Of a DNA stretch of 64,000 nucleotides, positions 33,657-36,566 are shown in pieces. Position numbers and translations under genes: made by a program. Positions within the stretch are counted from its first letter, which is position 1. Every line of letters starts with the position of its first letter. This stretch comes from Brevibacillus laterosporus (lineage in GTDB: Bacteria > Bacillota > Bacilli > Brevibacillales > Brevibacillaceae), in contig CP033464.1 in assembly GCA_007833815.1 (NCBI GenBank), forward strand, positions 1,738,501 to 1,802,500, written 5' to 3'. The notes under the pieces are model-generated. The model saw nothing but the letters and a program-made list of their open reading frames with translations, ran no database searches and was not told the DNA's origin.

Positions 33657-34757
33657 ATGACAAGAAAAAAACAACCAACCATTTATACGCTGCCCGATGA
33701 ATTTCAAGCATTTGATTTTGCTCAAGATCTCTTATACTGGTATGATGCCCAAAAGCGCGACTTACCATGGCGAATAAATCGAGATCCATATCGTGTCTGG
33801 GTATCAGAAATTATGCTACAGCAGACCCGTGTAGAAACCGTTAAACCCTACTATCAAAATTTTATGCAAAAATTCCCTACAGTGGAAGCATTAGCTGTCG
33901 CTCCTGAAGAAGATGTTCTAAAAGCATGGGAGGGACTAGGGTATTATTCCCGAGCAAGGAACTTACAAGCCGCAGCTCGTGAAGTCACAGTTTCCTATGG
34001 AGGCGTTGTTCCTGACACACCTGAAAAAATTTCTAAATTAAAGGGTGTGGGACCATACACAGCGGGAGCTATTTTAAGTATAGCTTACGAAGTGCCTGTG
34101 CCAGCAGTGGACGGAAATGTAATGCGTGTATTTTCCAGACTTTTACTTATGGATGATGATATTGCTAAACCAGCAACACGTGTGAAAATGGAACAACTAG
34201 TGAAACAAACGATTCCAATTGGACGAGCAGGTGATTTCAACCAAGCAATTATGGAATTAGGTGCACTCGTTTGTCTACCTAAGAATCCACAATGCCTAAC
34301 CTGTCCCGTATTTGATTATTGTCTGGCTAGAAGGGAAGGCGTGCAGGATACGTTGCCTGTCAAAGGAAAAGCAAAGCCGCCGCGTCCGGTCCAATTACTA
34401 ACAGTGGTGGTTAAACGAGGAGCCCAATTCCTCATACAAAAGCGCCCTGAACAGGGATTATTAGCTGGATTATGGGAATTTCCAATGATAGAGCATGCAG
34501 GTACAAACGATGACGAGGAGCAATTGCTACGTTTCTTGGAAAAAGAGTATGGTCTTGAAGTAGCTTTGGGGGATTATCTGATGAATGTACAGCATACCTT
34601 CTCACATTTGCATTGGAATGTGGATGTCTATGTGATGGAGCACATGTCAGGTGAGCTGCTAAAAGAGAATGCTGTGTTTGTTACCTCAGTGGAAATGGAG
34701 CAATACGCATTCCCAGTATTACACAATAAGATAATAGCCGAGGTATTGGAGAAGTAA
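33657..34757 (+). CDS. mutY: A/G-specific adenine glycosylase MutY
   Basis: Removes adenine mispaired with 8-oxoguanine; 366 residues. The N-terminal domain has LPWR, the catalytic Glu in MLQQTRVETV, the helix-hairpin-helix LKGVGPYTAGAILS, Asp in VDGNVMRVFSR and the iron-sulfur motif C-x6-C-x2-C-x5-C (CLPKNPQCLTCPVFDYC). The C-terminal Nudix-like domain that reads 8-oxoguanine follows (about 230-360). The ribosome-binding site is distant (AAGGGG 15 nt upstream). Synteny with B. subtilis yfhQ agrees. Confidence 0.95.
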   Translation: MTRKKQPTIYTLPDEFQAFDFAQDLLYWYDAQKRDLPWRINRDPYRVWVSEIMLQQTRVETVKPYYQNFMQKFPTVEALAVAPEEDVLKAWEGLGYYSRARNLQAAAREVTVSYGGVVPDTPEKISKLKGVGPYTAGAILSIAYEVPVPAVDGNVMRVFSRLLLMDDDIAKPATRVKMEQLVKQTIPIGRAGDFNQAIMELGALVCLPKNPQCLTCPVFDYCLARREGVQDTLPVKGKAKPPRPVQLLTVVVKRGAQFLIQKRPEQGLLAGLWEFPMIEHAGTNDDEEQLLRFLEKEYGLEVALGDYLMNVQHTFSHLHWNVDVYVMEHMSGELLKENAVFVTSVEMEQYAFPVLHNKIIAEVLEK

Positions 34758-34773
34758 GAAAATTGATAAATGG

Positions 34774-34804
34774 TAAAGCCCCCTTCACAAAAAAGGGGGC
34801 TTTA
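34774..34804. terminator. Bidirectional terminator
   Basis: TAAAGCCCCCTT/AAGGGGGCTTTA between mutY and the convergent small-peptide locus. Confidence 0.8.
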
Positions 34805-34822: not shown

Positions 34823-34984
34823 TTAGAATCGATTCATTAAATAATGATGCTCCATGCAACGTTGTTGGTTATCTTCACGAATTTTTTCAATACGTTTAAG
34901 TTGGATATAATCTCGGTATGTTTTCTCTGGTGATTTCTTTTTACGTTCAATGATAATAGTAAAAAAGATCATTGGAATATGCAC
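34823..34984 (-). CDS. YrzI-like small protein, 53 residues
   Basis: A GTG-started protein with a short hydrophobic N-terminus (HIPMIFFTIII) followed by a basic turn (ERKKKSPEKTYRDY) and a charged helix. GGAGG lies 9 nt upstream. The pattern is that of the YrzI family of very small Bacillales proteins and repeats the plan of the 50-residue protein at 35117-35269. It is the last of four small frames on this transcript. Confidence 0.65.
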   Translation of the reverse strand: MHIPMIFFTIIIERKKKSPEKTYRDYIQLKRIEKIREDNQQRCMEHHYLMNRF

Positions 34985-35019
34985 AGTGCACATCCTCCTT
35001 TTATTTTTTGTTCATCCAG

Positions 35020-35085
35020 TCAGGTCCCATCTAGCGCCTTTACACCTACAAATTTCATGCGTTGTTTACGTTTAACATTTCTCAT
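35020..35085 (-). CDS. Possible 21-residue basic peptide
   Basis: The frame MRNVKRKQRMKFVGVKALDG+T lies between the two YrzI-like genes and has GGGGGA 8 nt before the ATG. It is rich in Lys and Arg at its N-terminus. Coding is supported only by the ribosome-binding site and the dense packing of frames. Confidence 0.4.
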   Translation of the reverse strand: MRNVKRKQRMKFVGVKALDGT

Positions 35086-35116
35086 CCCAACATTCCCCCA
35101 TTCAAATTAAGAATAC

Positions 35117-35269
35117 TTACATAATATACGGCGTTTGAGCGTCTAACATGTATCGTTTTTCATCGCGTTCCTTAATCCATTGCTCTTGAAAATGAAGTTC
35201 TGTTTGTCGTTCAACAGGTTGCTTGTTGCGCTTAATCTGAACGGAAAACATTAAAAAATGAAATACCAT
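35117..35269 (-). CDS. YrzI-like small protein, 50 residues
   Basis: Hydrophobic start (VFHFLMFSVQI), basic turn (KRNKQPVERQT) and charged helix (QEQWIKERDEKRYML), as in YrzI-type proteins. AAGGGGGTG precedes the ATG by 9-11 nt; another ATG at 35278 in a different frame closes after 14 codons. It is the first gene after the attenuator-like hairpin. Confidence 0.65.
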   Translation of the reverse strand: MVFHFLMFSVQIKRNKQPVERQTELHFQEQWIKERDEKRYMLDAQTPYIM

Positions 35270-35310
35270 GATTCATGTCACCCCCTTTCAATAGGTACGA
35301 AATAAGAACA

Positions 35311-35381
35311 TAAAAAGACCGTAAGATATGGGTATCTCACGGTCTGGGCGTGTAAAGTGAATAAGCACCGCAAGAGATACC
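35311..35381 (-). promoter_or_regulatory. Attenuator-like terminator with competing antiterminator
   Basis: On the minus strand the 12-bp stem GACCGTGAGATA/TATCTTACGGTC (one G-U pair; 35344-35317) is followed by TTTTTA, an intrinsic terminator. Its 5' arm contains GAGATACC (35338-35331), which is exactly complementary to GGTATCTC located earlier in the transcript (35381-35374), so a competing hairpin can form. It separates the first small frame from the YrzI-like genes. Confidence 0.65.
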
Positions 35382-35416
35382 TCTCCTACGATCTACTTAT
35401 CAGGTATAAAGAATGG

Positions 35417-35521
35417 CTAAACAACCATCACCTGTCGGGAAGCAAGGAGAGAAGATGTTATGAAATTATGCATAGCACTATTGTTGCCAACTAATTGTGT
35501 TAAGATTCCCATAATCATCAT
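35417..35521 (-). CDS. Small peptide, 34 residues, first frame of the YrzI-like locus
   Basis: The frame starts MMIMGILTQLVGNN and ends RQVMVV, with AAAGGAGG 8 nt before the ATG, among the best ribosome-binding sites in the region. It is moderately hydrophobic and has no recognised family. Being placed between a promoter and the attenuator, it may act as a leader peptide or be a functional micropeptide. Confidence 0.55.
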   Translation of the reverse strand: MMIMGILTQLVGNNSAMHNFITSSLLASRQVMVV

Positions 35522-35561
35522 TTTCTGTACCTCCTTTCCAAATGGTTGCTGTTATTTCTTA

Positions 35562-35590
35562 ATAGTATGGTATTATTTTCAATTTGTAAA
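35562..35590 (-). promoter_or_regulatory. Promoter of the small-peptide locus
   Basis: On the minus strand TTTACA (35590-35585), a 17-nt spacer and TACTAT (35567-35562); transcription would start near 35555, just before the first small frame. Confidence 0.6.

Positions 35591-35789: not shown

Positions 35790-36566
<777 letters not shown>

Follow-up and report, generated by a model that had tools for sequence, protein, structure and literature searches.

A yrzI-type micropeptide operon of Brevibacillus laterosporus and the candidate attenuator in its conserved leader

The closest described counterpart of the locus considered here is the yrzI operon of Bacillus subtilis, for which the name spyTA appears in the reference list of PMC12320835. 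S1025, which lies in this operon, is presented as the first characterised substrate (PMC11780869) of Rae1, an A-site endonuclease (PMC12320835, PMC6613710), and the S1024, S1025, S1026 and yrzI transcripts are reported as raised in a rae1 mutant (PMC10632193, citing Leroy). The yrzI-yrhG intergenic transcript was once listed as a small RNA (PMC4634765), and yrzI of B. licheniformis was mapped with a 541-nt 3'UTR and a 301-nt 5'UTR, to which the table in that paper assigns no element (PMC3871023). In the literature searched (titles, the starts of abstracts, and passages) we found no description of a yrzI leader, and an earlier description elsewhere is possible.

Two further systems have features in common with the locus. 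In the bmrB-bmrCD system of B. subtilis, a small leader frame, alternative stem-loops and an intrinsic terminator precede the genes, and translation of the bmrB leader is required for antibiotic-induced read-through (PMC4191407). Both bmrC and bmrD are among the candidate targets of Rae1 (PMC10632193). The yrzI and bmrCD mRNAs both go up on depletion of RNase P or RNase Z, as described in a paper that calls the peptides of the yrzI operon of unknown function (PMC10100781), and yrzI and bmrBCD are likewise up in a whiA mutant (PMC10714963). We count these shared rises in favour of transcription attenuation, the mechanism considered below; PMC10100781 itself reads the rise as an effect on mRNA stability, which counts against it. 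In the toiL-topAI-yjhQ system of Escherichia coli, a short upstream frame controls a toxin-antitoxin operon and has been proposed to detect translation stress by means of RNA structure surrounding a ribosome-binding site (PMC12121999).

The locus compared with these systems lies within a stretch of 64,000 nucleotides of B. laterosporus (contig CP033464.1, positions 1,738,501 to 1,802,500), hereafter the window. As in the B. subtilis yrzI operon, a YrzI-type protein is encoded beside a very short peptide frame led by a Shine-Dalgarno (SD) sequence, and in B. subtilis the region upstream is transcribed (S1026; PMC3498285). The window differs in that two YrzI copies flank the small peptide, which has 21 residues and lacks the EKD tail. 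Whereas bmrB has its terminator within the leader coding sequence and controls a drug pump (PMC4191407), the hairpins of the window come after the stop codon of the leader, are twinned, and precede micropeptide genes. The toiL-topAI system relies on translational control and Rho-dependent termination, with the ribosome-binding site of topAI occluded (PMC12121999); in the window the terminators are predicted to be intrinsic, and it is the leader's own SD that appears to be occluded.

The operon and its YrzI-like proteins

Between mutY (33657-34757) and fabL (35808-36566), both on the plus strand, the minus strand carries a promoter-like site, a 34-codon leader frame (ORF1, 35417..35521), two hairpins, and frames of 50 codons (ORF2, 35117..35269), 21 codons (ORF3, 35020..35085) and 53 codons (ORF4, 34823..34984). 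The first-pass annotation had placed a regulated micropeptide operon here, and each part that it named was found on this strand where it had been put. Its comparison of the locus with the yrzI operon is supported by the analyses that follow, as are the two proteins resembling YrzI and the presence of an upstream frame, which is conserved. The annotation also gave every frame a ribosome-binding site of its own, which holds in general (SD at about 35288-35278 for ORF2 and at 35002-34994 for ORF4), but the SD of ORF3 is only GGGGGA in the window, against GGAGG in the relatives L048-L050. The last frame had been given 53 residues; the listing of open reading frames has it with 56 codons from an ATG at 34993, and we prefer the GTG at 34984 because the spacing from the SD fits and this codon aligns with the start in relatives. 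A hairpin at 34774..34801 (-18.7 kcal/mol), assigned to neither strand, lies between the end of the operon and that of mutY and may be a bidirectional terminator; its T run is short on both strands, and it is absent from the listing of the terminator scan.

The promoter-like site (35562..35590, minus strand) is of the sigma-A type, with a -35 element TTTACA (35590-35585), a 17-nt spacer and a -10 element TACTAT (35567-35562). A site is therefore present ahead of the first frame, as had been proposed, but a promoter scan of the region returned five sites against 6.1 in shuffles, which is no excess over chance. Since the scan count is no higher than in shuffles, the promoter is credible only through conservation: the pattern, chosen after inspection of the same leader sequences, occurs in 45 of 45 dereplicated leaders and in 12 of 900 shuffles. 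In three relatives from the B. licheniformis group (L124, L125, L129), yrzI is preceded, at a distance of about 300 nt, by a -10-like box near the published 5' end.

The proteins encoded by ORF2 (YrzI-a) and ORF4 (YrzI-b) had been said to look like YrzI. Scored singly, those of the window fall below the profile cut-offs: against PF09501 (cut-off 23), ORF2 reaches 12.7 bits (E above 0.1) and ORF4 13.5 bits, or 15.5 with the GTG start, and against TIGR02413 (cut-off 47.05) ORF4 reaches 13.8 and ORF2 has no match. The window's own genome contains no PF09501 match above the cut-off. Such matches are found in eight genomes of the same family (G002, G009, G020, G021, G022, G035, which has two, G036 and G039); G016 lies narrowly below the cut-off, and at least 17 further genomes of the family have no match at E<=0.001. 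Among chosen representatives, PF09501 is matched at E<=0.1 by nine of ten YrzI-b sequences, that of the window included, and by eight of twelve YrzI-a sequences, that of the window not included. Profile comparison with Bacillus YrzI by hhalign gave 95.2% for YrzI-a (E 2.8e-8) and 95.6% for YrzI-b (E 1.3e-8), with the similarity spanning the N-terminal hydrophobic stretch and the start of the helix. Given the relatives that pass PF09501, the family matches at E<=0.1 and the 95% in profile comparison, we identify ORF2 and ORF4 as encoding distant relatives of YrzI, which bears out the suspected resemblance even though the window's own PF09501 scores are below the cut-off.

Across the window and L048-L050, a comparison with few changes, pooled dN/dS is 0.07 for ORF2, 0.07 for ORF4 and 0.25 for ORF3, with pooled silent rates of 0.40, 0.26 and 0.12, respectively. 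By this measure ORF2 and ORF4 are under strong purifying selection. An AlphaFold2 model of YrzI-b (mean pLDDT 82, pTM 0.42) consists of helices at residues 3-15 and 19-52, a predicted short hydrophobic helix followed by a long charged one. Tandem YrzI copies also occur in some Bacilli, with four consecutive PF09501 matches in one genome (G219:C23:185643-186301) and two in each of the loci L093 and L094.

We compared 34 regions from other genomes of the family, 33 of them anchored on fabL, which has a match in 34 of the 40 family genomes, the window's included. Sequence matches to ORF2 at E<=0.01 occur in 13 of the 40. Among the 33 anchored regions, YrzI-a is present in 26 and absent from L047, L058, L062, L067, L068, L072 and L077; L047 and L077 retain the 21-residue peptide and a YrzI-b-type frame. 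The mutY flank is represented by a long match (at least 356 residues) in 15 of the 33 and by a partial match at the edge in three. No mutY match was found within the stretch upstream of fabL in 15 regions (in L051-L072, one of them on a short contig), suggesting a different gene order or intervening genes.

More widely, PF09501 has matches in 39 genomes out of a sample of 299 from the class (47 match rows, 30 taken as loci), and 66 further loci come from named genomes of Bacillus and near genera, biased to the Bacillus type by the search pattern MTI[NH]L... The resulting working set of 118 loci, near-duplicates included, comprises 25 of the 30 class loci, 26 family loci, the window and the 66 named loci; left out of the class loci were L090, L095 and L096, which failed the YrzI filter, and L103 and L107, already counted as family loci. 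To judge from this set, the operon layout recurs beyond the genus. The gene for Rae1/YacP is not discriminating, as PF05991 is above its cut-off in 40 of 40 family genomes, including that of the window.

A conserved frame of 73-74 residues (MYIGRDLSELTM...GGWDHSSAPIxD), without an NCBIfam name, precedes the leader in the same orientation in 8 of 15 regions: L063 (reverse strand 210-563, between fabL and mutY), L053, L064, L069, L073, L075, L076 and L077. In five of these eight, the frame is followed by a hydrophobic peptide of 30-32 residues.

The leader frame and its ribosome-binding site

ORF1 had been described as a frame with a perfect ribosome-binding site, and it does have a 9-nt SD match (GGAAAGGAGG, 35530..35539, minus strand). 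A leader frame with a strong SD, 22-44 codons long, precedes YrzI in 102 of the 118 loci when the criteria are an ATG, 14-60 codons, an SD match of at least 6 and a position within 460 nt; the 16 loci that have no leader by these criteria count against attenuation. Dereplication to no pair with more than 30% common 8-mers gave 45 leaders, in which the clade of the window is represented by L048.

The SD of these leaders can pair with the 3' half of its own frame, and the two sides vary in concert from species to species, a feature absent from the first-pass annotation. In the window, the anti-SD segment lies in the 3' half of ORF1 (35438..35450, minus strand), where CTCCTT and its flanks pair with AAGGAG and its flanks in the leader SD. 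Over the 45 dereplicated leaders the pairing has a mean z of -2.58, with z below -1 in 41 of them; the clade representative L048 has -2.10, and L046, L074, L116 and L156 lie above -1. The SD:anti-SD pair of a locus is also stronger than pairs swapped among loci (median fraction 0.16, KS p 1.5e-8), with shared ancestry a possible source of the matching. In the window itself the leader-frame stretch folds weakly (z = -1.10, with 26 of 200 shuffles equally stable).

Pooled over the window and L048-L050 (four close species, few changes), ORF1 has a dN/dS of 0.68 and a silent rate of 0.07, so that silent sites are constrained too, less so in ORF3, as expected of an RNA element. The reading frame of one conserved nucleotide motif in the leader varies from genus to genus, a pattern accounted for by the SD:anti-SD pairing. 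The leader peptides look unrelated between genera and no common stall peptide was seen, which counts against attenuation. Taken together, these comparisons indicate that constraint on the leader acts more on the RNA than on the encoded peptide. A functional micropeptide gene, with the hairpins as its terminators and the operon a mere cluster of small genes, would explain why the leader has a start codon, a strong SD and an open frame of 22-44 codons, but it fits poorly with the unrelated peptides, with a conserved stretch read in different frames and with a dN/dS far from the 0.07 of the YrzI frames, and we regard it as very improbable.

The long structured 5'UTR with tandem terminators could also suggest a riboswitch that binds a metabolite, or some other RNA class already known. 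Rfam returned no match at the gathering score in eight relatives, and in the window region its matches all stayed below threshold; what recurs among the leaders is the SD helix, with no fixed aptamer core; an identity of this kind is accordingly hardly to be expected. A pattern search of 299 genomes (GGAGGTCGA-N55-85-TTCGACC), which covers only the GGTCGA form of the leader, a form absent from the window's family, gave 27 matches in 26 genomes. In nine of these YrzI follows, and the SD is in every case succeeded by an ATG; for the remaining 18 a regular expression found no YrzI frame within 450 nt.

The twin hairpins and control of the operon

Two hairpins separate the leader from ORF2, both read on the minus strand. 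The first, H1 (35361..35400), has 17 pairs (-17.7 kcal/mol) and no U tract in the window; the second, H2 (35312..35345), is a predicted terminator whose stem of 13 pairs (35345-35316, -17.8 kcal/mol) is followed by a U tract at 35315-35312 (TTTT). In most relatives the counterpart of H1 is terminator-like as well, giving them an additional terminator. Together the two fold at z = -5.86, and none of 200 shuffles was as stable. The first-pass annotation had let the 5' arm of the terminator pair with an upstream complement, and GGTATCTC (35381-35374) is indeed complementary to GAGATACC (35338-35331), but GGTATCTC is not a lone antiterminator arm, being the 3' arm of the complete H1. The proposal of a regulated operon with the first peptide as leader is thereby modified: the operon stands, the leader is kept mainly as RNA, and a pair of hairpins replaces the single attenuator. 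That reading had been made to depend on conservation among relatives, and the frames and the hairpins are both conserved.

Terminator-like hairpins number two in 74 of the 102 leaders, one in 27 and none in one; for the 45 dereplicated leaders the corresponding counts are 36, eight and one. By chance, two hairpins arise in 1.1% of 450 shuffles and in 0.7% of 288 random genomic stretches of 160 nt. At least one terminator-like hairpin follows the leader in 44 of the 45, against 20% of shuffles and 16% of random 160-nt genomic stretches.

The arms of the two hairpins also match each other. In the 36 two-hairpin loci, the 3' arm of H1 fits the 5' arm of H2 from its own locus better than those of other loci (median fraction 0.14, KS p 2.4e-9), again with shared ancestry as a possible source; the exceptions are L082, L116, L131 and L140 (0.71-0.87), with L157 neutral (0.49). 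The other two arms, the 5' arm of H1 and the 3' arm of H2, also match within loci (median 0.15, KS p 1.5e-7), so that duplication of a hairpin or one shared partner could account for the H1:H2 matching. A stem core CCGCAGG, CCGTAGG or CCACAGG is present in both hairpins in many loci of distant families and tends to co-vary, as it would in a double protein site. Such a site would suit an antiterminator protein or Nus-type factor that binds the twin hairpins and reads the shared stem twice, leaving the leader frame only to tune leader translation. Neither mutY nor fabL, the genes flanking the window's operon, is an antiterminator, however, and the coordinated SD:anti-SD pairing would go unexplained, which makes a protein-bound site of this sort distinctly unlikely.

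Ribosome-mediated attenuation is favoured because the leader frame, the closed SD and the matching hairpins are all kept together. We therefore consider a yrzI-type micropeptide operon under a ribosome-sensing transcription attenuator to be the likeliest mechanism, with about an even chance of being correct. According to this model, termination at the hairpins would be the fate of most transcripts. Under disturbed translation, a ribosome detained within the leader frame or immediately beyond it would open the SD helix and block formation of H1 while RNA polymerase is still near; the freed 3' arm of H1 would then capture the 5' arm of H2, the polymerase would read through into the YrzI genes, and the peptides would be made under translation stress. 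In Bacillus, a second brake, also dependent on translation, would come from Rae1 acting at the small peptide beside YrzI.

Predicted folding of the leaders (37 in all, the 36 two-hairpin loci and the window) depends on the length of transcript considered. For a window transcript ending before the 3' arm of H2, masking the 5' arm of H1 lifts H1:H2 cross-pairing from 0.02 to 0.86, and among truncated transcripts of the 37 leaders those with cross-pairing of at least 0.5 go from 12 to 34 on masking. At full-length equilibrium, H2 of the window stays at 0.96-0.97 under every mask and cross-pairing at 0.00 even with H1 masked. Across the 37 full-length leaders, H2 is at least 0.5 in 26 when free, in 27 with a ribosome mask at the leader stop and in 25, the window among them, with the 5' arm of H1 masked; masking adds at least 0.4 cross-pairing in only four (L053, L131, L164, L169), and ten leaders show cross-pairing of 0.7 or more without any mask. 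An antiterminator acting at equilibrium is thus disfavoured in the window, and masking clearly shifts only the four leaders named. In these models the antiterminator may occur as a folding intermediate, but for the window a stable antiterminator state is not predicted. Between the leader stop and H1 the median distance is 32 nt (range 5-78), with 12 nt or less in only 2 of 37, so that H1 would seldom be covered by a ribosome positioned at the stop. The weak SD helix of the window and the lack of a U tract in its H1 also count against attenuation.

The persistence of H2 in 25 leaders under the H1 mask would also be expected if there were no switch at all, and constitutive double terminators held a harmful or costly operon low, with expression the sum of leak-through and Rae1-type decay. 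In B. licheniformis the signal of the 5'UTR exceeds that of the 3'UTR (NPKM 860 vs 348, PMC3871023), a difference that fits leak and regulated attenuation equally. Constitutive termination is a possible, if unlikely, account; it leaves unexplained why a strong-SD leader frame (in 102 of 118 loci) is retained together with its anti-SD, and why the hairpins match.

Under ribosome-mediated attenuation, the cell may switch the little-understood YrzI peptides on by sensing its own protein synthesis, and the conserved leader of yrzI-type operons would offer a directly testable switch. The published name spyTA (in the reference list of PMC12320835) suggests that YrzI and the small peptide may be a toxin and its antitoxin. 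Tentatively, and with less confidence than we attach to attenuation as such, the leader could represent a kind of cis-regulatory RNA that has so far gone undescribed and that accompanies YrzI operons throughout the Bacilli, in which an SD locked by its own 3' end is combined with twin matching hairpins and translation stress is turned into a toxin-antitoxin peptide pair, with Rae1 as a second check at the tail of the small peptide.

The small peptide beside YrzI

ORF3 encodes a conserved 21-residue micropeptide, found by regular expression in 28 of the 33 fabL-anchored family regions, at the position of the short peptide of Bacillus. The latter has 17 residues, and we take it to be S1025. No homology between the two was found, profile comparison giving 0.4% and no similarity; the tails of the peptides in the window's family are without EKD, which Bacillus encodes as GAG-AAG-GAY. 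From these comparisons, ORF3 is equivalent to the Bacillus short peptide by position only, and the doubled-YrzI version in the window's family has the same layout around a different small peptide.

A frame of 17-24 codons directly follows YrzI in 102 of the 118 loci by a filter on the last residues, and 86 of these loci also have a leader. The filter misses the window, L053, L054, L063, L064, L069 and L076, all of which have the 21-residue peptide, and with them the total is 109 of 118. Of the other nine loci, five (L100, L102, L106, L108 and L109) carry a comparable short frame ahead of YrzI, after the hairpins.

In Bacillus-type peptides ending EKDxx, the glutamate codon is GAG in 32 of 32 and the lysine codon AAG in 27 of 32, compared with 61 of 289 and 54 of 229 in the YrzI genes of the same loci. 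Among 50 distinct Bacillus-type 3' ends, the stop codon is TAG in 39 and is followed by C in 34, while each figure is 3 of 50 for the YrzI genes. The codon counts thus indicate a Bacillus-type tail that is strongly fixed at codon level, and the TAG-C of the tiny frame is possibly a weak-termination context kept across many genera. In the window's family, CTG follows the peptide stop in 12 of 12 distinct ends that pass the filter (11 TGA, one TAA), and ORF3 of the window itself ends in TGA CTG. For testing what Rae1, or slow termination, recognises, the Bacillus-type tails would supply a ready collection of natural sites.

The YrzI gene adjoining the Bacillus-type tiny frame uses TAA in 45 of 50 cases. 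In some Bacillus loci (L084:1815-1970 and L098:1796-1963, both on the reverse strand), the short peptide is followed by a frame of 51-55 residues with the motif S[IV]GHGYxSxPHSxKHGYGNP.
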